Shown here piece after piece: positions 4,383 through 17,109 of a stretch of DNA of 64,000 bases (positions are counted from its first letter, which is position 1; each line of letters begins with the position of its first letter). The stretch covers positions 1 through 64,000 of the forward strand of contig JAHIUX010000031.1 of the NCBI GenBank assembly GCA_018816765.1, read 5' to 3'. Below the pieces are notes generated by a model, which searched no databases, was not told where the DNA came from, and saw nothing but the letters and a program-made list of their open reading frames with translations. The position numbers were made by a program, and so were the translations under genes. Source of the DNA: Bacteroidota bacterium. GTDB taxonomy: Bacteria > Bacteroidota > Bacteroidia > Bacteroidales > F082.

Positions 4383-6020
4383 ATGAAAAAGATATTCGCA
4401 AATAAATATGTAGTGTACAGTCTGTTAGTTCTGGGCGGGCTTTTTATGGGCTGGCTTTTCTTTCATTCATCACCGGAACAGGAAGAGCAGCATAACCATT
4501 TAGCTGAACAAGCAGGTAAAGCAGCAATCTGGTCGTGTGCTATGCACCCGCAAATACGCATGGATACACCGGGCAAATGCCCCATTTGTGGCATGGATTT
4601 AATCCCGCTAAACCAAAGCACCTTAACGGTTGACCCTGGAGCAATTCACCTTACCAAAGAAGCTGCGGAGCTTTCTAATGTTTTAACATCAGTAGTTACA
4701 AAACAAAAACCGATAAAAGAAGTGCGCCTTTATGGTAAGGTTCAAGCCGACGAACGTTTGTTGCAAAGTCAGGTAGCCCACATACCCGGTCGAATTGAAA
4801 AACTACTGGTAAACTTCACAGGCGAAGGCGTTCGCAAAGGTCAAACGCTGGCACTCATATATTCACCCGAACTGGTTACCGCACAACAGGAACTTCTTGA
4901 AGCTTCTAAAACAAAACAGGCACAGCCCGAAATATACGAAGCATCCAAAGAGAAACTCCGTCAATGGAAATTAACAGAAGAACAGATTACAAAAATTGAA
5001 AGTTCTGGAACTTTACAAAACAATTTTGAAGTTGTTTCAAACACCACAGGAATTGTAACTGCACGGCGGGTAAACAATGGCGACCATATTGCACAAGGCA
5101 CAGTATTATACGACATTGCCGACCTTTCTACCGTTTGGCTTATGTTCGATGCTTACGAAAGCGATTTGCCATTCCTGAACGAAGGCAATAGAATAGTCTT
5201 TACCGTTCAGGCTTTGCCCGGTAGCACCTTTTCGGGTAATATAATATTTATTGACCCTGTTATTGACCCCGTTACCCGTGTATCAAAAGTTAGGGTTGAA
5301 ATCAATAACCAAGCCGGGAAGCTAAAACCCGAAATGTTTGCCACAGGCATTTTAAATGCAAACCTTTCAGAATACAAAAACAATTTTATAATCCCACGTA
5401 CGGCAGTATTATGGACAGGTAAACGCTCTATTGTTTACGTTAAACAAGCGAATGCAGACGAACCCATTTTTAAAATCCGTGAAATAGAACTCGGCCCCAT
5501 GTTGGGCAATAGCTATGTTGTAATAAGCGGCCTTAACGAAGGGGAAGAAGTTGTTACCCAAGGAACATTCAGCGTTGATGCTGCTGCACAACTCGAAGGC
5601 AAACCCAGCATGATGAACTCCGATGGAGGCAAAACTTCCATAGGACATAATCATAGCGATGCTCAAAATACAGAAAAAAATGAAGTTAAAACAGACCATT
5701 CAGCACATCAACTGCAAACAGTTTCAGAACATTCAAACCATAATAGTAAAGATATGGGGCAACACGAAATGTTTAGTGTATCGGGCAATTGTGAAATGTG
5801 TAAAGACCGCATTCAAACGGCTGCACTATCTGTAAAAGGCGTAAGCAGTGCTGTTTGGGATTTAGAGACAAAGAAAATCCATGTTGAATTTAATTCTAAG
5901 GAAACAAATATTGATGATATCCATAAAGCTATTGCTATGGTTGGACATGATACAGAGAAATTTATAGCTGATAATCAGACATATAATGCTTTGCCCGATT
6001 GTTGTAAATATCGTAAATAG
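4383..6020 (+). CDS. CusB-type periplasmic adaptor with N-terminal metal-binding and C-terminal HMA domains
   Basis: Membrane-fusion adaptor joining pump and channel. Order of parts: an N-terminal membrane anchor (residues 10-28); a heavy-metal-binding domain with CAMHP (52-56) and CPICGMD (66-72); barrel-sandwich and beta-barrel regions (about 110-400); a His/Asn-rich linker (about 420-462); and a C-terminal heavy-metal-associated domain with C470-E-M-C473. The HMA domain is normally found in copper chaperones and P-type ATPases, so here the adaptor carries its own ion-capture modules at both ends. It follows the channel gene by 19 bases and closes the operon. Copper or silver is the likeliest substrate by family; the sequence cannot separate these from other soft metals. 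Confidence 0.9.
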   Translation: MKKIFANKYVVYSLLVLGGLFMGWLFFHSSPEQEEQHNHLAEQAGKAAIWSCAMHPQIRMDTPGKCPICGMDLIPLNQSTLTVDPGAIHLTKEAAELSNVLTSVVTKQKPIKEVRLYGKVQADERLLQSQVAHIPGRIEKLLVNFTGEGVRKGQTLALIYSPELVTAQQELLEASKTKQAQPEIYEASKEKLRQWKLTEEQITKIESSGTLQNNFEVVSNTTGIVTARRVNNGDHIAQGTVLYDIADLSTVWLMFDAYESDLPFLNEGNRIVFTVQALPGSTFSGNIIFIDPVIDPVTRVSKVRVEINNQAGKLKPEMFATGILNANLSEYKNNFIIPRTAVLWTGKRSIVYVKQANADEPIFKIREIELGPMLGNSYVVISGLNEGEEVVTQGTFSVDAAAQLEGKPSMMNSDGGKTSIGHNHSDAQNTEKNEVKTDHSAHQLQTVSEHSNHNSKDMGQHEMFSVSGNCEMCKDRIQTAALSVKGVSSAVWDLETKKIHVEFNSKETNIDDIHKAIAMVGHDTEKFIADNQTYNALPDCCKYRK

Positions 6021-6062
6021 TACACTTTTGTTAAAATAATTGACTAAAATAGAAAAATAAAA

Positions 6063-6078
6063 CCCCGCTTTTGCGGGG
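6063..6078. terminator. Bidirectional terminator between converging genes
   Basis: A perfect six-base stem (CCCCGC / GCGGGG) with a TTTT loop lies 43 bases after the adaptor stop and just past the stop of the minus-strand gene 6089-7027. Read on the minus strand it is followed by a T-rich run (TTTTATTTTTC), so it is strongest for that gene; on the plus strand the tail is weaker. Confidence 0.8.
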
Positions 6079-6088
6079 CTTATATTAC

Positions 6089-7027
6089 TTAATTCTTTTC
6101 AAGTTCAATATTCAGGTTCGCAGTTTCACCATTTGCAACAGTAATCGTTATTTCCTGATTCTTGTACCCTATTTTTTCAACTGTTACTTTGTATGTATTT
6201 TCGGGCAACGAAGCACGAAATTTACCTTTGTCGGCACTCTTTTTTACTATCGGTTTTGCCGTTTCGGTTGCAGCAGCTTTCATCATACCATTGGTTTCTG
6301 CAACAAATGTAAAAGATACCCCTTTCAACGGTTCTCCACTTCCTGCAATGGTAACACTACCTAAAACAGAGGTTGCACCGCCCCCTGTCGGGATAATAAT
6401 TCGGGCGGTTTTATATTGACTGTAAAAATCGGGCTTCGTAGTTTTAAACAGTTCAATATCCAAATCCAAACGTTTAACTAAAAGTTCGTCTGCTTCTTTA
6501 AACAGTTTGGTAAGGTTTTCGGTTGCCGTTTTTGTTTGCGATTTCGCAGCCTTAGGTTTGGAAAGCGTTGCAGAATAAGCAGTTATTGCAGCTTGTAATT
6601 CGGTAATCATTGCAGCAGTTACACCATAGGTTGCAATAGCAGCAGCATTGGCATTGGCTTTAGCAAGTACAGTATTACAAATTCCAATAACATCAGTATC
6701 TCTCGATTTTTTCAAATCCGAAGCCGAATACTTTATGCTTTCAAGCAATTCAGGATTATTTACAACATTGGCATACGATTGTAAACGGTTAATCATAAAC
6801 AGCGTTTTTTCTGTCATACTATTGCGTTTCGCTGTTTTATCGGTGGTTATACCCGTCGTCTCTAGGGTTTGTGCATCCCTATTTGTTTCAATCAAAGGAA
6901 TTTTTGCAACCCAAAGATTATACGTTGCTGCAAATACAGCGTTGGTTGTCCAAGTGGTCTGATACTTCTCGCAAGTATTCTTTACCACGTAGTACATACT
7001 TAATTTGTCTTCTTGATTAATGTTCAT
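6089..7027 (-). CDS. Orphan protein: helical domain plus carboxypeptidase-regulatory-like domain, downstream of a 21-bp repeat array
   Basis: 312 aa, no signal peptide or membrane segment. Residues 1-210 look all-helical with two conspicuous blocks, TTGITTDKTAKR (57-68) and SDLKKSRDTD (103-112). After a Gly-rich hinge (IIPTGGGAT), residues 218-312 read as a beta-sandwich of the carboxypeptidase-regulatory/PEGA type (GSVTIAG, PLKGVSFTF, YKVTVEKIGYKNQEITI). I know the N-terminal type only as a hypothetical protein of environmental Bacteroidota and assign no function. It has its own terminator and faces the efflux operon. Upstream on its own strand lie 51 bases and then the 15-unit array, which may form part of its promoter or transcript leader. 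No clear TAnnTTTG box was found just upstream of the start codon. Confidence 0.8.
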   Translation of the reverse strand: MNINQEDKLSMYYVVKNTCEKYQTTWTTNAVFAATYNLWVAKIPLIETNRDAQTLETTGITTDKTAKRNSMTEKTLFMINRLQSYANVVNNPELLESIKYSASDLKKSRDTDVIGICNTVLAKANANAAAIATYGVTAAMITELQAAITAYSATLSKPKAAKSQTKTATENLTKLFKEADELLVKRLDLDIELFKTTKPDFYSQYKTARIIIPTGGGATSVLGSVTIAGSGEPLKGVSFTFVAETNGMMKAAATETAKPIVKKSADKGKFRASLPENTYKVTVEKIGYKNQEITITVANGETANLNIELEKN

Positions 7028-7078
7028 TACGGTAAGATTTAAGAGTTAATATTAAGTGATTAAAGGTAAACTACCTTG

Positions 7079-7393
7079 ATACTAGATTTCTTATATGGAA
7101 TACTGAACTTCCACCCCTCTAATCCTCATTTCTTACCAACAATATTGACTTTCTACACAACAATCGAGGATTTCTTCAATTTGTTATTGAATTTCCATTT
7201 ATAAAATCCGATTTTCATAATGCAAATTATGATTTTCTTTAACACAAACAAATATTTCGACATAAAAAATTTGATTTTCAATATATTAAATATGTACTTC
7301 TTAATAGCAATACCGTTTTTCATTCTTATAATCATTGATTTCTTTGCGATAATTGCACATTTCTTTTCAATAATCATTAATTTCCCTATTATG
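7079..7393 (-). repeat. Array of 15 degenerate 21-bp units in exact register
   Basis: On the plus strand the trinucleotide TTC recurs with its C at 7090, 7111, 7132, 7153, 7174, 7195, 7216, 7237, 7258, 7279, 7300, 7321, 7342, 7363 and 7384: fifteen times at exactly 21 bases with no slip. A T precedes it in 13 of 15 units, an A closes the preceding unit in most, and G lies six bases before the C in 9 of 15. A rough plus-strand consensus is AAT-N3-G-A-W-TTTC followed by about 8 variable bases; on the minus strand the core is GAAA. Most other positions differ between units, unlike a recent tandem duplication. It is AT-rich, has no single frame open throughout, and sits upstream of 6089-7027 on that gene's strand. 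Confidence 0.9.
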
Positions 7394-7641
7394 ACAGTTT
7401 ATTACCAATTTGATAATTCACAAAACCCCGCCACGAAAGACAAAAACAAACAGCATACGTTCAAGCCGCCCTGCCCATCCCTTCGCCGTCAGGCACATTT
7501 GCAAGCCCCCACGAGCCATCGCTCCAGCCAAAGGCTTACAAAAGAGCCTGCCAGCCCATCCCACGCCAACGCACCATGAAATGGTAGTACTTCGTCTGAA
7601 AAGATTGCTTATATTTAACGAAAAAATGACAAAAAACAATA
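7394..7641. other. Non-coding spacer with a GC-rich imperfect hairpin
   Basis: No credible gene. An abrupt GC-rich patch (about 7465-7575) lies between AT-rich flanks. It contains an imperfect hairpin with arms 7490-7507 and 7533-7550 (TTTGCAAGCC against GGCTTACAAA, extended by CAGGC against GCCTG) around a 25-base loop. Overlapping short open frames on both strands are Pro/Ala-rich and look like chance readings of the GC patch. Confidence 0.6.
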
Positions 7642-7782
7642 AAGGCCAGTTGCCAACACGCTGTAAAACCAATGCGGGCTTACGTCGGACAAAAACAGCT
7701 TCCTGCTTTTTTCAAACTCACAGGTGGCTGGACAACGACAGAACATGAAATCCGCACTGGCCTTACAGCACAACGTTACCGC
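7642..7782. repeat. attC-like imperfect inverted repeat (element 1)
   Basis: The left arm (about 7651-7680) and the reverse complement of the right arm (about 7743-7782) share CTGTAA-N2-CCA-N-TGCGG with scattered mismatches. The left arm carries a CCAAC-type box and the right arm ends in CGTTACC, resembling the R boxes of integron attC sites. A separate perfect nine-base pairing exists between AAGGCCAGT (7642-7650) and ACTGGCCTT (7756-7764). Total length (~130 bases) fits the attC range. No integrase is in the window, so 'attC-like' is a structural description only. Confidence 0.5.
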
Positions 7783-7876
7783 CAAGTGTAAAAAGACAGA
7801 AACGAACAGACAATTTGCTACTAAAAGACAAAAAAAAAAGAAAACCAAATAATGAACAGCCAACGCACAAAACAGC

Positions 7877-7941
7877 ATCCCGATGACTATCGGGACAAAT
7901 CGCACAAACCAACGCTCGACCAATCCCGAAAGCTTTCGGGA
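7877..7941. repeat. Two REP-like palindromes
   Basis: Two short near-identical palindromes stand 46 bases apart: TCCCGAT-GACT-ATCGGGA near 7878-7895 and TCCCGAAAGCTTTCGGGA near 7924-7941. Palindromes of this TCCCGAW...WTCGGGA form are dispersed in many Bacteroidota genomes. They lie just upstream of the hsdM promoter; no terminator T-run follows. Confidence 0.65.
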
Positions 7942-7958
7942 GCAAAAGAGTTGTTTTC

Positions 7959-7991
7959 TTGCCGACGCACCCACTGAGTTAAGTATCTTTG
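7959..7991 (+). promoter_or_regulatory. Promoter of the type I restriction locus
   Basis: The Bacteroidota -7 box TATCTTTG (7984-7991) matches TAnnTTTG, with a TTG -33 element at 7959-7961 (22-base spacing). The transcript would begin shortly after 7991 and leave a leader of about 25 bases before hsdM. Confidence 0.65.
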
Positions 7992-8022
7992 GGTTTATTA
8001 ATTAACAGACTGAAAATATAGA

Positions 8023-9594
8023 ATGGCAAAAAAGAACGGAAACGATAAACCGATAGAAGTAACCCTTTGGGATGCAGCAAATAAATTGAGAGGAAGCGTA
8101 GAACCAGCTGAATACAAACACGTAGTTTTAGGACTGATTTTCTTAAAGTTTGCAAGCGACAAATTTGAAGAACACCGGGCCAAACTCATTGCCGATGGCA
8201 AAGAAAAGTACATAGAGATGGCAGACTTCTATAACATGAGCAATGTGTTCTTTTTGGACGAAACAAGCCGTTGGAGTTACCTGATTAAAAAATCAAAACA
8301 AAATGATATTGCATTGCTCATTGACACAGCTTTGCACACCATCGAGAAAAACAACAAAGCCTTAAAAGGCGCATTGCCCGACAATTATTTCTCACGCTTG
8401 GGATTGGATGTTACCAAACTGGCTTCATTGCTTGATACTATCAACGACATTGACACCACAAAAGACCCAAAACAAGACGTGGTTGGAAAAGTTTACGAAT
8501 ACTTCCTTTCAAAATTTGCATTGGCAGAAGGAAAAGGCAAAGGAGAATTTTACACGCCCAAAAGCATTGTAAACCTGATTGCCGAAATGATTGAACCCTA
8601 CAAAGGCATAATTTATGACCCTGCCTGCGGTTCGGGCGGTATGTTTGTGCAATCGGTAAAGTTCATTGAAGCACACCACGGAAACAAAAAAGAGGTTTCC
8701 ATTTATGGACAGGAATACACCAACACCACTTACAAACTGGCAAAGATGAACCTTGCCATTCGTGGCATTTCGGGCAACCTGGGCGAGAAAGCAGCCAATA
8801 CTTTTTTAGACGACCAGCACAAAGACCTGAAAGCTGATTTTATTATGGCAAATCCGCCATTTAACCAAAAAGACTGGCGGGCTGAAAACGAATTGATTGA
8901 CGACCCACGCTGGCGAGGGTACGATGTACCACCAAAGAGCAACGCTAACTACGGCTGGATTTTAAATATGGTTTCCAAACTCAGCGACAACGGAGTGGCG
9001 GGTTTCATTTTGGCAAACGGTGCGTTGAGTGGCGGTGGCGAAGAATACAAAATACGCCGCAAACTCATTGAAAACAATTTGGTGGAAGCCATTTTAGTTT
9101 TACCACAAAATATGTTTTACACCACCAACATCAGCGTTACACTTTGGATAGTAAATAAAAACAAAAAAATACAAACCCGTAAAATAGGTGATGAAACCCG
9201 AAACTTCCGTAATCGCTCAACAGAAATTCTGTTTATAGATTTGCGGCAAATGGGTATTCCGTTTGAGAAAAAATACATTCAGTTCTCCGGGGATGATATA
9301 AAAAAAATTACGGGCACTTACCACCAATGGCAAACCAAGGAAATTGAAAATATTCCTGAGTTCTGTTATTCCGCTTCATTTGAAGAAGTAGCCAAAAAAG
9401 ATTTCTCACTTGTTCCGAGCAAATACATTGAGTTTATAAATCGTGACGAGAACATTGATTTTGATGAAAAAATGCAAAAGCTGCAAAACGAATTTGCCGA
9501 ACTGCTAAAAGCTGAAGCACAATCAAAAACGGATTTGCTGAAAGTTTTTGAAGAATTGGGGTTTCCAATTGACCTTGATTTAAATGCTGAATAA
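8023..9594 (+). CDS. hsdM: Type I restriction-modification system methyltransferase subunit
   Basis: N6-adenine DNA methyltransferase subunit of a type I restriction-modification enzyme. Residues 1-150 form the helical HsdM N-terminal domain (VTLWDAANKLRG; YKHVVLGLIFLKF). The SAM-binding motif DPACGSGGMF starts at residue 199 and the catalytic NPPF at 277. Length (523 aa) is typical. It is first in the locus, 31 bases after a good promoter box, and is followed after three bases by the ORF6N gene, indicating one transcript. Confidence 0.96.
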   Translation: MAKKNGNDKPIEVTLWDAANKLRGSVEPAEYKHVVLGLIFLKFASDKFEEHRAKLIADGKEKYIEMADFYNMSNVFFLDETSRWSYLIKKSKQNDIALLIDTALHTIEKNNKALKGALPDNYFSRLGLDVTKLASLLDTINDIDTTKDPKQDVVGKVYEYFLSKFALAEGKGKGEFYTPKSIVNLIAEMIEPYKGIIYDPACGSGGMFVQSVKFIEAHHGNKKEVSIYGQEYTNTTYKLAKMNLAIRGISGNLGEKAANTFLDDQHKDLKADFIMANPPFNQKDWRAENELIDDPRWRGYDVPPKSNANYGWILNMVSKLSDNGVAGFILANGALSGGGEEYKIRRKLIENNLVEAILVLPQNMFYTTNISVTLWIVNKNKKIQTRKIGDETRNFRNRSTEILFIDLRQMGIPFEKKYIQFSGDDIKKITGTYHQWQTKEIENIPEFCYSASFEEVAKKDFSLVPSKYIEFINRDENIDFDEKMQKLQNEFAELLKAEAQSKTDLLKVFEELGFPIDLDLNAE

Positions 9595-9597
9595 ACG

Positions 9598-10572
9598 ATG
9601 GAAGTGAATAATTTAATATATACGGTAAGAGGAATTCATGTAATGCTTGATAGCGATTTGGCTGAACTATTTCAAGTTGAAACGAAGGTCTTTAATCAAG
9701 CTGTTAAAAGAAATATCAATAGATTTCCTGATAATTTTAGGTTTCAACTTACTAAGGATGAATATGATTATTTGAGGTCTCATCTTGTTACCTCAAGTAG
9801 TGTTGATTTAAGGTCACAAATTGTTACCTTAAAAAATGGAGTTGTTGATGGAGATAATCCAGAAAATATTACAGAAGATATAAGGACACAAAATGTGACC
9901 TTAGAAGATAATAGAGGTAAACATAGAAAATATCTTCCGTATGCTTTTACTGAACATGGAGTTGCAATGCTTACAGGAATCATTAGAAGTGATATTGCAA
10001 TTGAGATGAGTATTAAAATCATGACAGCTTTTGTTGAAATGAGAAAATTCATTTCATTAAATGCCTTATTAATAAACAGGATAGACTCAATAGAAACCAG
10101 GCATTTAATTTTTCAAAACGAAAGCAATGAAAAGTTTAATCAACTATTTAATGCACTTCAGAAGGAGGGTAAAACCAATAAGGAAAACATATTTTTTGAC
10201 GGGCAGATTTATGATGCTTACAGTTTTATCATTAATTTAATTGAAAAGGCGAAAACCGACATTGTTTTAATCGACAACTATCTTGATAAAAGCGTATTGG
10301 ATATGCTTTCGAAAAAACAAATTAATGTAAAAGTGCGCTTAATTACAAATTCAAAAACCAAATTGCTGAAAACGGATATCCAAAAATTCAATCAGCAATA
10401 TCCCCGGCTTAGCCTTGATTATTCTGATAAGATACACGACCGTTTTTTACTGATTGACCAATCCGAACTTTATCACATTGGCGCTTCACTAAAAGACTTG
10501 GGTAAAAAAATGTTTGCCTTTTCATTGATGGAAGACAAGGAATTAATCACCAACTTACTGAAGCGGTTATGA
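9598..10572 (+). CDS. ORF6N-domain DNA-binding protein with PLD-like tail
   Basis: Residues 1-125 are an ORF6N domain (IYTVRGIHVMLDSDLAELF; KYLPYAFTEHGVAML), a phage-type DNA-binding fold often carried inside type I restriction loci of Bacteroidota. A linker follows, then a C-terminal region (about 195-324) with H280-D-R-F-L-L-I-D287 and GASLKD, resembling half of a phospholipase D-type HKD site. Within the ORF6N domain a short motif is repeated three times (LRSHLVTS, LRSQIVTL, IRTQNVTL at about 59, 71 and 95), each encoded by a near-palindrome. The gene lies 3 bases after hsdM and overlaps hsdS by 4 bases. A modulatory role on the locus is inferred from position. Confidence 0.85.
   Translation: MEVNNLIYTVRGIHVMLDSDLAELFQVETKVFNQAVKRNINRFPDNFRFQLTKDEYDYLRSHLVTSSSVDLRSQIVTLKNGVVDGDNPENITEDIRTQNVTLEDNRGKHRKYLPYAFTEHGVAMLTGIIRSDIAIEMSIKIMTAFVEMRKFISLNALLINRIDSIETRHLIFQNESNEKFNQLFNALQKEGKTNKENIFFDGQIYDAYSFIINLIEKAKTDIVLIDNYLDKSVLDMLSKKQINVKVRLITNSKTKLLKTDIQKFNQQYPRLSLDYSDKIHDRFLLIDQSELYHIGASLKDLGKKMFAFSLMEDKELITNLLKRL
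9774..9902. repeat. Three palindromic repeats inside the ORF6N coding sequence
   Basis: Near-palindromes of about 19-21 bases lie at 9774-9794 (GAGGT...ACCTC), 9811-9829 (AGGTCACAAATTGTTACCT) and 9882-9902 (AGG-A-CAC...GTG-A-CCT). They encode the repeated LRSQxVT peptide motif. Each has operator-like twofold symmetry, so they could be repeat expansion, operator sites, or both. Confidence 0.6.
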
Positions 10573-11696
10573 GAAAAGATTATAAACGGATTGGTGAACA
10601 TATTCGGCTTGTAGATGAACGAAATAAAGGCTTGCAAATAAAACAGCTTTTGGGTTTAAGCATTTCAAAACAGTTTATTCCTTCTGTTGCAAATATCGTT
10701 GGAACGGATATGGAGAACTATAAAATCATTCGTAAAAACCAATTTGCTTGCAGCACAATGCAGGTAAGGCGTGATAAAAAAATGCCTGTTGCTTTGTTGC
10801 AGGAAGTTGATGAAGCCATTATTTCACAAGCCTATCCTATTTTTGAGGTAAAAGACGAACAAGAACTTTTGCCTGAATATTTAATGATGTGGTTTGAGCG
10901 TTCAGAGTTTGACCGTGAGGCTTGTTTTCACGCTGTTGGCGGTGTTAGAGGAAGTTTGGAATGGGAAGATTTTGAAAATTTGCAATTACCAATTCCACAC
11001 CCCGACAAACAACGAGAAATCGTAAAAGAATACAACGTAATCCAAAATCGCATAACCCTTAACCAACAACTCATACAAAAACTCGAAGAAACCGCACAGG
11101 CGATTTATAGGGAGTGGTTTGTGGAGTTTGAAAATGAAGAAATTGTATTTCTTAAGGAATATATTGAAACTAACCCAAAACTTGAATTGAAAAAAGGTGT
11201 AATTTCAGCTTACATTGAAATGGCAAACCTTTCGGAATCATCAATGTGTATAAACGGGAAAGTTGAAAGGGAATATCAGGGAGGTTCAAGGTTTCAGAAT
11301 AATGATACACTGCTTGCCCGTATTACACCTTGCTTAGAAAATGGAAAAACTGCCTTTGTCAATATTCTTGAAGAGAGTGAAGTAGCGGCAGGCTCAACAG
11401 AATTTATTGTAATGAGGGCAAGAAAAAAAATAAGTCCATTTTGGGTTTATTGTTTAGCCAAAGACGAAGGTTTTAGGACTTATGCAATTAGCAGTATGAT
11501 TGGTTCTTCTGGTCGCCAAAGAGTTCACGAAAAGTATCTTGAAGAATTTCAATTACCAAAAATCAATGAAGACCAAATGAAAATGTTTGATAAAACAGCA
11601 AAACCAATTTTTGAAACGGTAAAATTGAAATCAATCGAAAACCAAAAGCTGACTGAACTAAAAGATTTGCTTCTTTCGAAATTAGCAAGTGTCTGA
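10569..11696 (+). CDS. hsdS: Type I restriction system specificity subunit
   Basis: DNA-recognition subunit. Two target-recognition domains flank a central helical spacer (about residues 155-195, ending near AIYREWFVEFE), with a second helical segment at the C-terminus (KLTELKDLLLSKLASV). At 375 aa it is slightly short; the first recognition domain (~150 residues) is compact. It starts in ATGA overlap with the ORF6N gene. Its last two codons and stop fall at the left end of the GxxExxY-containing inserted element, so the present C-terminus may have been set by that insertion. Confidence 0.92.
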   Translation: MRKDYKRIGEHIRLVDERNKGLQIKQLLGLSISKQFIPSVANIVGTDMENYKIIRKNQFACSTMQVRRDKKMPVALLQEVDEAIISQAYPIFEVKDEQELLPEYLMMWFERSEFDREACFHAVGGVRGSLEWEDFENLQLPIPHPDKQREIVKEYNVIQNRITLNQQLIQKLEETAQAIYREWFVEFENEEIVFLKEYIETNPKLELKKGVISAYIEMANLSESSMCINGKVEREYQGGSRFQNNDTLLARITPCLENGKTAFVNILEESEVAAGSTEFIVMRARKKISPFWVYCLAKDEGFRTYAISSMIGSSGRQRVHEKYLEEFQLPKINEDQMKMFDKTAKPIFETVKLKSIENQKLTELKDLLLSKLASV

Positions 11697-11712
11697 ACTA
11701 TGATTTTTGTGA

Positions 11713-12000
11713 TTAAATGATTACTATGATTTAGAAAACAGGAAAATGGTAAATTCAACATACAATCAAGGCAATCACACAAGTCAAATGAATCAAAGTT
11801 CAGACAATTAAATGATTACTATGATTTAGAAAAAAAGAAAATGGTAATTCAACATACAATCAAGGCAATCACATAAATCAAACGAATCAAAGTTCAGACA
11901 ATTAAATGATTACTATGATTTAGAAAAAAAAGAAAATGGTAATTCAACATACAATCAAGGCAATCACGCAAGTCAAATGAATCAAAGTTCAGACAATTAA
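11713..12000 (+). repeat. Three ~95-bp tandem repeats plus a partial fourth
   Basis: Units begin at 11713, 11808, 11902 and 11997 (periods 95, 94, 95; differences lie mainly in an A-run). Each begins TTAAATGATTACTATGAT and ends with a block like AATCAAAGTTCAGACAA. The fourth copy runs into the GxxExxY gene, whose start ATGATTACTATGATA is the same motif; in the complete copies it is followed at once by a stop (M-I-T-M-I-stop). So the repeats look like duplicated copies of the gene's own start region. Confidence 0.9.
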
Positions 12001-12411
12001 ATGATTACTATGATAAAACAGGAATACAAATACTCCGAACTTACTTCAAAAATTATCGGTTGCGCAATGACTGTTCACAAAACATTGGGAAATGGCTTTC
12101 AGGAAGTTATTTATCAGCGTGCTTTAGCAATTGAATTGAATCTGGCAGGTATTGAATTTAGCAGGGAATATGAAATGCCGATTTTTTATCGTGAAGAACA
12201 AATAGGCACAAGGCGGGTTGACTTTTTGGTGGAAGGTGTTGTTTCGGTTGAACTGAAAGCCATTACCAAACTGGAAGATGTTCATTTTGCACAGGCTATC
12301 AATTATTTGGAAGCATATAATCTGGAAATTGGATTACTTATTAACTTTGGAGAAACAAGTTTAAACTTTAAACGATTAACCAATAAGAAATTCAAATCAG
12401 AAATCATATAA
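12001..12411 (+). CDS. GxxExxY protein (PD-(D/E)XK-like)
   Basis: Small 136-aa protein of the GxxExxY family. The name motif is G32-F-Q-E35-V-I-Y38, preceded by VHKTLGNG. R72-V-D74-F and V-E84-L-K86 give the D...ExK signature of the PD-(D/E)XK nuclease superfamily. Function is not established; the family is common in Bacteroidota beside repeats of the kind found here. Its 3' end forms part of the right inverted repeat. Two in-frame ATG codons (12001, 12010) could serve as start; no other gene of the locus depends on its frame. Confidence 0.85.
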   Translation: MITMIKQEYKYSELTSKIIGCAMTVHKTLGNGFQEVIYQRALAIELNLAGIEFSREYEMPIFYREEQIGTRRVDFLVEGVVSVELKAITKLEDVHFAQAINYLEAYNLEIGLLINFGETSLNFKRLTNKKFKSEII

Positions 12412-12445
12412 TCACAAAAATCAAATAAATCATAGTTCAGACAAT

Positions 12446-13879
12446 ATGGCTGAAAAACAAAACATAGAATACAAGCAAAGCTGGCACGACGATTACCTGA
12501 AATGGGTATGTGGTTTTGCCAATGCCATCGGAGGAATGATTTACATTGGTATAGATGACAAAGGAAATATTGTCCACCTGCCCGATTATGCCAAACTTTT
12601 GGAAGATATTCCCAACAAAATTCGCAACTCTATGGGGATAATTTGCGATGTGCAGTTGGAAAATAAACAGGGGAAAAAATATATTTCAATCAAAGTCAAT
12701 CCGTATTCTGTGGCTGTTTCGTTGCGGGGCAGATATTATTATCGCACGGGCAGTACAAAAATGGAATTAACAGGTGTTGAGCTTAACGAATTCCTGTTAA
12801 AAAAGGCAGGTAAAACCTGGGATGATGTGGTAGAGGAAGGCGCTGCCATGAAGGACATTGACGAACCGAGCATTACAAAATTCATAGAAGATAGCAAAGA
12901 AAAAGGCAGAATGCCGGAAACAAAAGGCTTGTCTGCTTTTCAAATATTGGAAAAACTTCAACTTACCGAAGGGCGTAAATTAAAACGGGCTGCAATTGTT
13001 CTTTTCGGAAGTGACCCGAACCGGTTTTATCCAAATGTGCAGGTTAAAATTGGTCGTTTCGGAAAAGATTCAACCGATTTAAAATTTCATGAAATTGTTG
13101 AAGGCAATCTGATTCAAATGCTCGATGAAGTTCAGGCACAACTGAATCATAAGTTTTTAACCCGACCGGTAGATTTTATTGGGATGCAACGTGTTGAGAA
13201 AGATGAATATCCTGTAGCAGCTTTACGAGAGATGCTACTTAACGCATTAGTGCACAGAACCTACATGGGAGCTCATATTCAGTTGCGTGTATACGACGAC
13301 AAACTTTCGATATGGAATGAAGGGGGTTTGCCATTTGGGTTAACGCTGGAAGAATTGAAAGGAGAACATAATTCACGACCACGTAATCCTAAAATTGCCA
13401 AAGCTTGTTTTATGGCTGGATATATTGATACATGGGGACGTGGCACCTTAAAAATATACAATTCGTGTAAAGAACATGGGCTTCCTGAACCTGATATTTT
13501 AGAAAAAGATGGTGGTTTTATGGTTGCTCTAAATAAAGCTATAAAAGTTACTGATAAAGGTGGTGCAATTGGTGGTGCAATTGGTGGTGCAATTGGTAGT
13601 CAAACAGGTGGTCCAATAGGTGGTCCAATAGGTGGTCCAATAGGTGGTCCAATAGGTGGTCCAATAGGTGGTCCAATCGAAGATTTAACAGACAGGCAAA
13701 GAGAAGTTTTAAATCTTATTAAAGAGGATAATAAACTTACTAAAAGAAGACTTGCTGAAAAACTTGATATTAATGTTTCTGCTGCTCAGGGTCATTTAGA
13801 TATACTTAAAGAGAAAGGAATAATAGAAAGAATTGGTGGAACGAGAGGTTATTGGAAAATATTAATCAGTCTTATATGA
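12446..13879 (+). CDS. AlbA_2/Schlafen-type ATP-binding protein with Gly-Pro-Ile repeats and winged helix
   Basis: Residues 1-125 are an AlbA_2 (divergent AAA-4/Schlafen-like) domain (IEYKQSWHDDYLKWVCGFANA; GGMIYIGIDDKG). About 235-350 resemble a HATPase_c_4 region (REMLLNALVHRTYMG; GGLPFGLTLEELK; GYIDTWGRGT). Residues 372-411 are a tetrapeptide repeat (GGAI x3, GSQT, GGPI x6), and 417-477 a winged helix (TDRQREVLNLIKED; LDILKEKGIIERIG). Members are annotated as putative transcriptional regulators or RecG-like helicases and often lie between type I genes. The stop overlaps the likely hsdR start (ATGA). A regulatory role is inferred. Confidence 0.88.
   Translation: MAEKQNIEYKQSWHDDYLKWVCGFANAIGGMIYIGIDDKGNIVHLPDYAKLLEDIPNKIRNSMGIICDVQLENKQGKKYISIKVNPYSVAVSLRGRYYYRTGSTKMELTGVELNEFLLKKAGKTWDDVVEEGAAMKDIDEPSITKFIEDSKEKGRMPETKGLSAFQILEKLQLTEGRKLKRAAIVLFGSDPNRFYPNVQVKIGRFGKDSTDLKFHEIVEGNLIQMLDEVQAQLNHKFLTRPVDFIGMQRVEKDEYPVAALREMLLNALVHRTYMGAHIQLRVYDDKLSIWNEGGLPFGLTLEELKGEHNSRPRNPKIAKACFMAGYIDTWGRGTLKIYNSCKEHGLPEPDILEKDGGFMVALNKAIKVTDKGGAIGGAIGGAIGSQTGGPIGGPIGGPIGGPIGGPIGGPIEDLTDRQREVLNLIKEDNKLTKRRLAEKLDINVSAAQGHLDILKEKGIIERIGGTRGYWKILISLI
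13559..13678 (+). repeat. Ten-unit 12-bp in-frame tandem repeat
   Basis: Three copies of GGTGGTGCAATT, one divergent unit (GGTAGTCAAACA) and six copies of GGTGGTCCAATA (the last ending in C) run without interruption inside the ATPase gene. Twelve bases equal four codons, so gain or loss of units keeps the frame and only changes linker length. Confidence 0.95.
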
Positions 13880-16800
13880 AATTAACTGACGTTGAACTTC
13901 GTTTCACAGAAGAAAAATTAGAAAAGGCTTTTGCCGAGTTGTTGGGGCAAGAAGGATTTCCCCATCATTTGGGCATTACAATTACCCACAAGCCCGACGA
14001 AGTTTTGATTGAAGAAGATTTACGCAGTTTTCTTTTAAACCAATACGCACCGCAAGGTATTACAACTAATGAAGTCAATTCAATTATTCTTCAACTTAAA
14101 ACACTACCTGCTTCTGACTTATACGAAAGCAACAAAACATTCTTAAAAATGCTTTCTGACGGTTTTATTCTCAAAAGAGAAGACCGCAGCCAAAAAGACA
14201 TTTACATTCAACTCATTAACTTTGCAGGATTAAACAAACACCGCCAACCTGAGCCTGAACAACTGTTATCAGTTGCAGCCGAACCAAAAGAACAATATCC
14301 ACCCGATACCAATATTTACAAGTTTGTTAATCAACTGGAGATTTATGGAACAGAAAAACGCATTCCTGACGGCATAGTTTACATCAACGGTTTGCCTTTG
14401 GTTGTTTTTGAGTTTAAAAGTGCCATTCGTGAAGAAGCCACAATTTTTGACGCATTCAAACAATTAACGGTTCGTTACCGCAGGGATATTCCCGAACTGT
14501 TTAAATACAATACTTTTTGCGTAATCAGCGATGGAGTAAACAACAAAGCAGGTTCGTTTTTTGCGCCTTACGATTTTTTCTATACCTGGCGTAGAGTGGC
14601 AGGTTTAGCAAAAGACGTGGACGGCATCGACAGTATGTTTACACTCGTTCAGGGTATGTTTAATAAAAACCGCCTGCGTGATATTATCCGAAACTTTATT
14701 TACATTCCTGACAAGAGCAAAAAAGAAGAAAAGATTGTTTGTCGCTATCCGCAATATTATGCTGCAAGAACATTATTTGATACTATCAAAAAAGCCCAAA
14801 AGCCCGAAGGAGACGGAAAAGGCGGAACATATTTCGGAGCAACTGGCTCAGGTAAAAGCTACACAATGCTTTATCTTGCCCGCTTGTTGATGAAAAGCGA
14901 ATACTTTGAAAGTCCAACCATTGTTTTAATTACCGACCGCACCGATTTAGACGACCAACTTGCAGCACAATTTATAAATGCAAAAGGTTTTATCGGCGAC
15001 AATGCAGTGGAAAGTGTTGTAAGCCGTGCCGACCTGAGAACCAAACTGCAAGACAGACAAAGCGGAGGCGTTTTCCTCACTACCATTCACAAGTTTACCG
15101 AAGATACCGAACTACTCACTGAAAGAAATAATGTGATTTGTATTTCAGACGAAGCACACCGCAGTCAGGTAAATCTCGACCAAAAAATAAGAGTAACGGA
15201 AGAAGGAGTCAAAAAGACATTCGGCTTTGCTAAATACTTACACGATTCCTTACCCAACGCAACTTATGTTGGCTTCACCGGAACGCCTATTGATGCAACG
15301 CTTGACGTTTTCGGGAAAGTAGTAGATGCCTACACAATGACCGAATCGGTAAGAGATGAAATCACCGTGCGGATTGTGTATGAAGGCAGGGCGGCAAAAG
15401 TAGCTTTGAAAAATGGTGAGTTAGAGAAAATTGAAAAATACTACGAAGAAGTTGCCGAATTAGGCGCTAATGAATATCAAATTGACAAGAGCAAACAGGA
15501 AACGGCAAATATGTACGCCATTCTTGGCGACCCCGACCGCTTGCAAGCCGTTGCAATAGATTTTGTAAACCACTACGAAAACCGAATTTCAGAAGGAGCA
15601 ACAGTAAAAGGAAAAGCAATGTTTGTAAGCAGCAGCCGTGAAATTGCGTATGAGCTTTACAAAAACATTATTGCTCTCCGTCCTGAATGGAATGAAATCA
15701 GAGAAGCGGAAGAAGGTGCAGAACTTACCGACAAAGACAAACGGGAATTAAAACCGATTGAACGAGTTAAATTGGTAATGACCAGAGGCAAAGACGACCC
15801 GAAAGAACTTTGGGATATGTTAGGCACTTCTGATGACAGAAAAGAACTTGACCGCCAGTTTAAAAACCCAAAATCGAATTTCAAAATTGCCATTGTAGTT
15901 GATATGTGGCTTACCGGTTTTGATGTTCCTTTCCTGGATAGCATTTACATTGACAAGCCAATTCAGCAACATAATTTGATTCAAACAATTTCACGGGTTA
16001 ACCGCAAGTTTGAAGGTAAAAACAAAGGTTTGGCAGTAGATTATATCGGCATCAAAAAACAAATGAATCTGGCTCTCGCCAAATACAACAAAGGCGACAA
16101 GGATAATTTTGAAGATATTGCAGAATCCATCATCATTGTTCGTAATCATTTAGACCTTTTAGCGAAACTGTTTCACAAGTTTGACAACTCTAAATATTTC
16201 AAAGGCACAACTATTCAACAGTTAAACACATTGAATCTGGCTGCTGAATATGTGCAACAATCCAAAGACTTTGAAACCCGTTTTATGGGTTTGGTTAAAA
16301 GACTAAAAGCTGCTTATGATATTTGTGCGGGGAGTGAACAATTAACACAATTAGAAAGAGATTATACACATTTTTATTTGGCTGTTCGTTCCATCGTTTT
16401 TAAACTTACCAAAGGCAATGCACCCGACACGGCTCAGATGAACGCTAAAGTTCGGGAAATGATAAAAGATGCTTTGCAAAGTGACGGAGTTGAAGAAATT
16501 TTCAAATTGGGGGAAGAAGTAGAAACCGAACAGGATATTTTTGATGAAGATTACTTGGCAAAGATTGATAAAATCAAATTGCCAAACACAAAAATTAAAT
16601 TGCTTCAACAGCTATTAGCCAAAGTAATCGGAGAAATCAGAAAAGTTAACCGAGTAAAAGGAATCGACTTTTCAAGAAAAATGCAAGCCATTGTTGACAG
16701 ATACAACAACCGAGATGCAAACGACATTTTAAGAAGTGAAGTTTACGAAGAAATGGCAAACGCATTGACAGACTTAATTTGGGAAGTTCACAAAGAATTT

Positions 16801-17109
16801 AATGCAGGCGATGAATTAGGTATTGACTTTGAAGAAAAAGCCTTTTACGACATCCTGAAAGAACTCTGCAAAAAGTACGACTTCACTTATCCTGACGACA
16901 AACTCATTGACTTATCAAAAGCAGTTAAAATCATCGTTGATAACCAAGCCAAATTCCCCGACTGGAACAAACGAGATGATATAAAATCGGCATTGAAAGT
17001 TGAGTTGATTTTGATTTTAGATGAGTTTGGTTATCCACCTGTGGAGAGAGACGAAGTGTATGTTGAGATATTTGAGCAGGCAGAAAACTTTAAGAAAAAT
17101 AGACAATAA
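13876..17109 (+). CDS. hsdR: Type I restriction endonuclease motor/nuclease subunit
   Basis: Restriction subunit that translocates DNA and cuts it. I use ATG 13876, in ATGA overlap with the upstream stop, instead of the TTG at 13852. An N-terminal PD-(D/E)XK nuclease site is visible (D165 ... E179-F-K181), then the helicase motor: Walker A GATGSGKS (321-328), DEAH (425-428), GFTGTP, and the late helicase motif QTISRVNR. The C-terminal ~300 residues form the HsdM-contacting helical region. At 1077 aa it is full length, with no frameshift seen, so the restriction system appears intact. Confidence 0.95.
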   Translation: MKLTDVELRFTEEKLEKAFAELLGQEGFPHHLGITITHKPDEVLIEEDLRSFLLNQYAPQGITTNEVNSIILQLKTLPASDLYESNKTFLKMLSDGFILKREDRSQKDIYIQLINFAGLNKHRQPEPEQLLSVAAEPKEQYPPDTNIYKFVNQLEIYGTEKRIPDGIVYINGLPLVVFEFKSAIREEATIFDAFKQLTVRYRRDIPELFKYNTFCVISDGVNNKAGSFFAPYDFFYTWRRVAGLAKDVDGIDSMFTLVQGMFNKNRLRDIIRNFIYIPDKSKKEEKIVCRYPQYYAARTLFDTIKKAQKPEGDGKGGTYFGATGSGKSYTMLYLARLLMKSEYFESPTIVLITDRTDLDDQLAAQFINAKGFIGDNAVESVVSRADLRTKLQDRQSGGVFLTTIHKFTEDTELLTERNNVICISDEAHRSQVNLDQKIRVTEEGVKKTFGFAKYLHDSLPNATYVGFTGTPIDATLDVFGKVVDAYTMTESVRDEITVRIVYEGRAAKVALKNGELEKIEKYYEEVAELGANEYQIDKSKQETANMYAILGDPDRLQAVAIDFVNHYENRISEGATVKGKAMFVSSSREIAYELYKNIIALRPEWNEIREAEEGAELTDKDKRELKPIERVKLVMTRGKDDPKELWDMLGTSDDRKELDRQFKNPKSNFKIAIVVDMWLTGFDVPFLDSIYIDKPIQQHNLIQTISRVNRKFEGKNKGLAVDYIGIKKQMNLALAKYNKGDKDNFEDIAESIIIVRNHLDLLAKLFHKFDNSKYFKGTTIQQLNTLNLAAEYVQQSKDFETRFMGLVKRLKAAYDICAGSEQLTQLERDYTHFYLAVRSIVFKLTKGNAPDTAQMNAKVREMIKDALQSDGVEEIFKLGEEVETEQDIFDEDYLAKIDKIKLPNTKIKLLQQLLAKVIGEIRKVNRVKGIDFSRKMQAIVDRYNNRDANDILRSEVYEEMANALTDLIWEVHKEFNAGDELGIDFEEKAFYDILKELCKKYDFTYPDDKLIDLSKAVKIIVDNQAKFPDWNKRDDIKSALKVELILILDEFGYPPVERDEVYVEIFEQAENFKKNRQ

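Follow-up and report, generated by a model that had tools for sequence, protein, structure and literature searches.

A gene family scattered over Bacteroidota and the arrays of 21-bp units that lie in cis beside it point to an undescribed module of this phylum. Its reference copy lies in a window of 64,000 nucleotides, by which we mean the whole stretch of DNA analysed (Bacteroidota bacterium, contig JAHIUX010000031.1, positions 1 to 64,000). There, a minus-strand family gene of 312 amino acids (6089-7027) has on its 5' side an array of fifteen units of exactly 21 bp each (7079-7393, minus strand). We tentatively favour the reading, held at a little below even probability, that the array is a platform of double-stranded DNA on which a protein, most likely the product of the adjacent gene, assembles at one subunit per two helical turns. 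A helically phased platform is favoured because the step is 21 at any GC content, conserved columns tend to form two patches one turn apart, arrays can stand 5' or 3' of the gene and the repeat sequence is specific to each locus. The preliminary description of the window had listed a phased protein-binding site, an intrinsic bend and a transcript cut into equal pieces as options, of which putative phased protein binding is best supported by the sequences.

The register of the array is exact, and its fifteen 21-base units were confirmed by column counts. T, T and C occupy columns 9-11 in 15/15 units, with the C at 7090, 7111 and so on to 7384, just as initially described. Further columns are biased, with T at column 8 in 13/15 units, A at column 0 in 14/15 and A at column 20 in 12/15. 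Written on the gene strand, the unit has a GAAA core in columns 0-3 and a second, ATT-like patch in columns 10-12. The initial picture was right about the fixed TTC, but the other columns are not all free, given the ATT-like patch one turn from GAAA. Column information sums to 12.55 bits over the 21 columns, and 315-base stretches of the window taken at 21-base offsets (array included) have a mean of 4.0 bits (sd 0.9). The ten top-scoring stretches of this length all overlap the array. The comparison with shuffled sequence that had been proposed places the array far above 2000 dinucleotide shuffles: with all periods between 15 and 30 tried, shuffles reached at most 0.382 bits per column against 0.598 for the array, and every shuffle had zero invariant columns against three. 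Autocorrelation peaks at lags 21, 42, 63 and 84, with 42 and 84 slightly above the others, and two-unit alternation reaches z 2.2. Tandem Repeats Finder recovers 2.7 copies only, since adjoining units are only about half alike (identity 0.49 at lag 21). Four exact GAAA cores at a 21-bp step occur in the window's genome at the array and in one other match, with 2 in the backward control. Just past the array, a GC-richer block spans 7420-7830, and a similar-looking block was seen by eye past the arrays of the relatives L001 and L003. A 55-bp piece of this block has two more copies in the genome at 87-91% identity.

The family gene starts 51 bp from the array, and the leader between them (7028-7078, minus strand) is largely conserved in alignments with the relatives L001 and L004, less so with L002. 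Promoter signals were at chance level, with 7 matches in 52 leaders to the -7 motif TANNTTTG, a Bacteroidetes promoter element, against 5.8 expected, and 7 sigma-70-like sites against 6.0. Directly 3' of the gene stands a terminator-like hairpin with a T-rich tail (6060-6081, minus strand). Residues 221-310, the C-terminal third of the product, form a CarboxypepD_reg domain in Pfam. The remainder, about residues 1-215, is a predicted helical domain, its secondary structure taken from a low-confidence AlphaFold model built on four sequences, which with a mean pLDDT of 48 was too poor for a fold comparison. Pfam gave no match to this N-terminal domain in the window protein or in ten diverse relatives. 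None of NCBIfam, PHROGs, PADLOC and PDB sequences puts a name to the domain either, as their matches were isolated or absent. The best of these was a tail-spike PHROG (E 2e-5, 1/20 members), followed by a PADLOC nuclease model (E 0.001, 1/20) and a PDB coiled-coil chain (E 0.007). Two properties of the protein count against a DNA platform. No DNA-binding domain was recognised, and the isoelectric point of the N-terminal region ranges from 4.7 to 9.5 across 25 members.

Close relatives show how the array changes over short evolutionary distances. One scan of genome contigs yielded four, L001 (the MAG GWF2_33_16), L002, L003 (Breznakibacter xylanolyticus DSM 6779) and L004, which are 95%, 78%, 72% and 95% identical, respectively. 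The 21-bp period is found upstream of the gene in all four. The array of L004 is shortened, and 21 wins there only in a shorter 8-unit scan. A transposase-looking ORF (L004 1153-1680, by eye) lies directly upstream of the shortened array. Each unit of the window array has its counterpart in L001, and the alignment needs no internal gaps despite 61 differences in 315 bases, which bears out the claim that spacing is kept while sequence drifts. The stronger claim that the step never slips holds for the window array and L001, but not for L002, with one-base gaps relative to L001, or L003, with one 20-base unit. Between the window and L001, substitutions fell on 4/60 positions in the GAAA columns and on 57/255 in the others (Fisher p 0.006). 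Columns 0-2 and 11-12, picked after looking, had 2/75 against 59/240 (p 3e-6). In the gene itself, 53/135 four-fold degenerate sites differ between the same two loci, hence the free columns of the array evolve no faster than neutral sites.

The gene had been regarded as an orphan, which was not borne out, as it belongs to a family with a patchy distribution over Bacteroidota. Profile searches with the N-terminal domain matched 17/395 genomes drawn from the phylum, 30/245 of one class, 26/164 of one order, 12/117 in one family and 5/5 in another; these genome sets overlap and the E-value limits differ between searches. Single genomes contain up to 17 matches. The loci examined are a subset of all matches, consisting of a default set and hand-picked regions (14 and 40) that are mostly full-length. 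The count of distinct family genes excludes the repeated loci L027-L033 and L157-L194, ORFs shorter than 60 aa, genes identical to ones already counted, and matches above E 1e-8 or covering fewer than 150 model positions. This leaves 168 genes including the window's. Within 1 kb on the 5' side, 104 of them carry a 21-bp array, while nine have one on the 3' side only and 55 none that was called. The preliminary description would have been refuted by homologous loci lacking any 21-bp period, but 104/168 carry it on the 5' side. By strength of match, a 5' array was found at 55/68 genes below E 1e-50, at 14/25, 16/28 and 16/35 in the successive ten-decade steps to 1e-20, and at 3/12 weaker ones. 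Nineteen loci reached only via the C-terminal domain in the first phylum search had no 21-bp score above 0.46 (12-unit score), and in the same run nearly all N-terminal-domain loci scored 0.59-1.74 at 21, L064 and L073 being the exceptions.

The 55 genes without a called array count against a DNA platform. When 18 periods were compared on their 5' side, 21 nonetheless came first at 17 genes where 3.1 are expected, and on the 3' side of genes without a called array at 7/52 (2.9 expected). As 21 comes first beyond expectation, some of these genes carry degenerate arrays. Among the nine 3'-only arrays, two score close to the threshold (0.67 and 0.68). For the 3' arrays L177, L180 and L191, kilobases of flank beyond the array contain no second family gene at E 1e-4. 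Two clear 21-bp arrays have no recognised family gene beside them (L189 1986-2258, score 0.81; L173 1241-1623, score 1.73). These lone arrays count against a platform linked to the gene, and they are possibly the arrays of lost or very diverged family members.

Specificity for 21 bp bears on whether the arrays could be neutral minisatellites that persist beside genes and owe their register to slippage and homogenisation alone. Across all 104 loci with a 5' array, 21 is the best period between 16 and 33. Other 5' periods in this range reach the threshold at three loci or fewer each; the exception is 28, which is a harmonic of 84 and does so at 19 loci. The surroundings of 18 family genes, about 245 kb in all and mostly chosen because no array or a 3' one was known, held zero arrays of period 19, 20, 22 and 23, against five of period 18 and one of period 24; half of these genes have an array that scores 0.62 or more in their region. 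A further 20 family genes (274 kb), in regions mostly chosen for a known array, had an adjacent array in 20/20. The same regions held nine further 21-bp stretches, eight of them at 0.62-0.69, along with one array of period 22, nine of period 18 and six of period 24. A neutral repeat would fit the fast turnover of arrays, since only three pairs among the 104 5' arrays pass unit-by-unit orthology criteria, and higher-order repeats reflect block duplication. However, neutrality does not account for the same step in unrelated sequences beside one family, for the empty neighbouring periods in the 245 kb, for diverged arrays that remain in register with units about half alike, or for the constraint on core columns between the window and L001. 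We regard a purely neutral origin as very improbable.

The arrays share their step rather than their sequence. A total of 115 arrays have 7-23 units (median 9) and a GC content between 0.16 and 0.76; the median distance from the end of a 5' array to the gene is 171 bp. The same 21-bp step at up to 76% GC speaks against an A/T-tract bend as the general purpose of the arrays, one of the options raised at the outset. Repeat sequence mostly differs from locus to locus, also between many paralogues of one genome, and only a weak signal of a common motif (GAAATG-N4-TTT-like) was found. Close paralogues share a recognisable repeat (L034/L063, L066/L069 and L132/L141). Arrays expand in whole units. 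Two-unit alternation exceeds z 2 in 10/52 arrays, the window's included, with one below -2, and L131 and L042 have five-unit blocks. This set of 52 arrays stems from 93 loci at a score of at least 0.62, with L105 skipped for having no array and L148 for having just 4 upstream bases. In the alternating arrays L137, L145 and L007 the two unit types have just a core in common, so the kept unit appears to be 21 bp rather than 42. The 5' arrays are oriented, with same-strand similarity to other 5' arrays exceeding reverse similarity in 86/104 (related loci included).

Part of the evidence for action as DNA comes from the placement of conserved columns, which tend toward two patches about one helical turn apart (one of the sets analysed comprised 48 of the 52 arrays). 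The spectrum of conserved columns was computed for the 104 of 115 arrays with a mean column identity below 0.86, which are not the same 104 as in the 5' count. Power was high at both 21 bp (z 6.7) and 10.5 bp (z 6.4), and 55 arrays outside the first test gave z 6.2 and 4.8, respectively. Shuffling columns in blocks of three as a stricter null lowers the 10.5-bp signal to z 3.3 (p 0.0008, 104 arrays). Under this block null, the 10.5-bp excess over neighbouring frequencies has p 0.017 in the 104 arrays, and the 10.5-bp p is 0.015 in the 55 new arrays and 0.06 in 55 made non-redundant by PWM similarity. The signal is weak both in AT-rich arrays alone (z 1.4) and in arrays where each of the six frames contains stops (z 1.9).

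A repeat of 21 bp could also be translated, as seven residues of three bases each would give a heptad-repeat peptide, for example a coiled coil, upstream of the gene. The distinction between DNA and peptide rests on codon tests, because a heptad-repeat peptide also gives 10.5 bp. Stop-free sense frames are common in 5' arrays (e.g. L035, L070, L233 and L255). Among 109 of the 115 arrays (mean column identity below 0.90), 60 have a stop-free sense frame, whereas column shuffles give 41 +- 2.8. Compared with other triplet sets (45 in total), the real stops come first by raw count and second by z (5.6; median 2.1). Antisense frames were stop-free in 52 arrays against 47 +- 3.8 in column shuffles, rank 18 of the triplet sets. 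Where a 5' array has a single open sense frame (41 arrays), an in-frame ATG lies upstream of the array or within its first three units in 30. The excess of stop-free sense frames is a hint of translation that stands against the DNA reading and is not fully explained. Perhaps the leader must be translated, with no visible constraint at the amino-acid level. The codon tests argue against a selected peptide, however. Diversity at codon positions 1-3 is 0.427, 0.422 and 0.418 in 46 arrays of the same identity class, with no third-position excess, and amino-acid identity in the open frame minus that in other frames is 0.000 +- 0.007 (43 arrays, from the set below 0.86). The column spectrum has no 3-bp power (z -1.6), and 49/109 arrays have stops in every sense frame. 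The 10.5-bp signal is kept in 25 arrays with at least two stops per sense frame (z 2.5). Substitutions at positions 1, 2 and 3 number 27, 29 and 33 in three pairs of orthologous arrays, of which two include the window's. An earlier coding-heptad test on 52 arrays gave little signal. In the window itself, the minus-strand frame noted at 7153-7377 exists and covers most of the array with 74 codons, and it is judged not to be a selected protein. Between the window and L001, the most open frame (189 array bases) has 17, 18 and 11 substitutions at codon positions 1, 2 and 3, so the third position changes least. Together with the negative codon tests, this supports the initial claim that the constraint is not at the protein level. 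We consider a translated array improbable.

Alternatively, the array might act as a transcribed RNA, perhaps cut into 21-nt pieces that bind or guide the neighbouring protein. A cis array with a single protein gene, 5' or 3', matches the locus layout of TIGR systems in the available part of PMC12045711, and a 5' array beside a gene matches that of type III toxin-antitoxin loci in the available part of PMC4627078. The preferred orientation of 5' arrays to the gene would also fit a transcript. Structure is less supportive, as minimum-free-energy folding of 19 arrays, with a program that does not predict pseudoknots, found no consistent structure relative to shuffles, and single arrays deviated either way. 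The unit is 21 at every locus instead of changing in length from one to another. Unlike guides, the variable segments are reused within an array, and single-base changes separate those of the window from those of L001. Window positions 5900-8100 have no Rfam match at gathering score, and no RNA-binding or nuclease family was assigned to the family protein. The initial suggestion of a transcript cut into equal pieces thus gained no positive evidence, and we rate an RNA role as unlikely. A DNA site also fits better than a leader, because the array may stand 3' of the gene.

We suggest the following mechanism for a DNA platform. A two-part locus would consist of a family gene and a cis array of 21-bp units. 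As 21 bp correspond to two turns of B-DNA, matching bases of each unit would lie on one face of the helix. The candidate binder is the product of the neighbouring gene, as its linkage to the arrays suggests. Its helical N-terminal domain might bind the double-stranded array cooperatively, with one subunit or dimer per 21 bp touching two patches one turn apart. The resulting regular nucleoprotein assembly could regulate or mark its own locus. A more speculative extension, which we find rather doubtful, is that each gene of the multi-copy family has a private DNA address. Sequence differences between many paralogues of a genome would then let copies coexist, each acting at its own locus, through nucleoprotein assemblies that recognise themselves and have roles akin to partition, silencing or recombination. 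Should the arrays prove to be binding platforms, nature would provide many pairs of a protein and its DNA array. Action as RNA or peptides would instead make them repeat-based elements of a new class. Both the family and the arrays are easily found in genomes, and the cultured Breznakibacter xylanolyticus DSM 6779 carries one, which makes the locus testable.

The genomic surroundings of the family are diverse. A conserved operon partner was sought by all-against-all BLAST of 20 neighbourhoods of up to 14.8 kb each, and no neighbour group was common to more than four of the 20 loci. The group common to four loci sits directly downstream of the family gene, and its members presumably share a type IX secretion tail. 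In the window, an apparent type I restriction-modification cluster spans 8023-17109, with HsdM at 8023-9594 assigned by Pfam and later ORFs by eye. It contains extra inserted genes including an ORF6N-domain gene and an AlbA_2 gene. A 95-bp tandem unit (11712-12014; 3.2 copies, 94% matches) lies between two ORFs of the restriction-modification region, and a 12-bp unit repeated ten times (13558-13677) lies within an AlbA_2/Schlafen-type gene, where it encodes a GGPI repeat. At L025, a methylase-like ORF was seen by eye near the family gene.

A fixed 21-bp step in more than 100 mostly unrelated arrays beside one family is unexplained by the libraries and papers searched. Narrow literature searches of open-licence papers found no paper on 21-bp arrays or on such a family. 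CRISPR arrays are likewise regularly spaced repeats beside a gene. The array had been described as distinct from CRISPR, which is upheld: it has neither a long identical repeat nor unique spacers, family arrays lack near-identical repeats, and Pfam assigned no Cas protein. One of 20 members had a weak Csn2 match in PADLOC (E 0.017). Plasmid iterons, bound by Rep, and plasmid centromeres (ParR/parC) are direct repeats near two turns beside the gene of their binder. They resemble the arrays here in repeat length and the adjoining gene. No replication initiator or partition NTPase was seen by eye in 20 neighbourhoods, the latter among the nearest neighbours listed, and Pfam assigned no Rep family to the family protein. 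Phage or plasmid origin found no support in searches of 72,556 plasmid and 50,697 phage records with two family proteins each, or of IMG/VR contigs for close relatives with three proteins, all weak negatives as the family is diverse.

Type III toxin-antitoxin loci (ToxIN, CptIN and TenpIN) have diverse tandem repeats upstream of one protein gene. As far as the available text of PMC4627078 describes them, the repeats in the examples give pseudoknot RNAs of 36 and 45 nt, their length differs between loci and the toxin is a Kid-like ribonuclease. Compared with that account, the arrays here have one unit length, no consistent fold and a predicted helical protein, and are sometimes 3'. Neither Pfam (11 members) nor NCBIfam and PADLOC (20 members) assigned a ToxN, CptN or TenpN toxin. 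TIGR arrays, in the part of PMC12045711 available, lie on either side of a single protein gene and usually comprise 5-15 units. Their repeats are constant within and different between loci, and each unit has two constant blocks and two variable ones. The TIGR-Tas unit of that account is 36 nt, with two spacers set between edge and loop repeats and spacer sizes varying between loci, whereas the arrays here have 21 bp and variable blocks that are short and reiterated. A scan of periods 34-47 upstream of 168 genes found period 36 at threshold at 0/168, with 42 at 86, 35 at 10 and 41 at 5. Pfam found no Nop domain in the N-terminal domain, although Tas proteins were themselves found by structure- and profile-based mining.

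The closest described behaviour found appears to be the two-turn binding of BvgA. According to the available part of PMC7250471, BvgA~P dimers bind one face of the DNA at a spacing of two turns (22 bp), also where the sequence matches weakly, and deletions in BvgA promoters were made in two-turn steps that preserved phase. BvgA nevertheless is one trans-acting regulator at a few promoter sites. The arrays here, mostly unrelated in sequence from locus to locus, stand as 7-23 units beside one gene family, either 5' or 3' of the gene.
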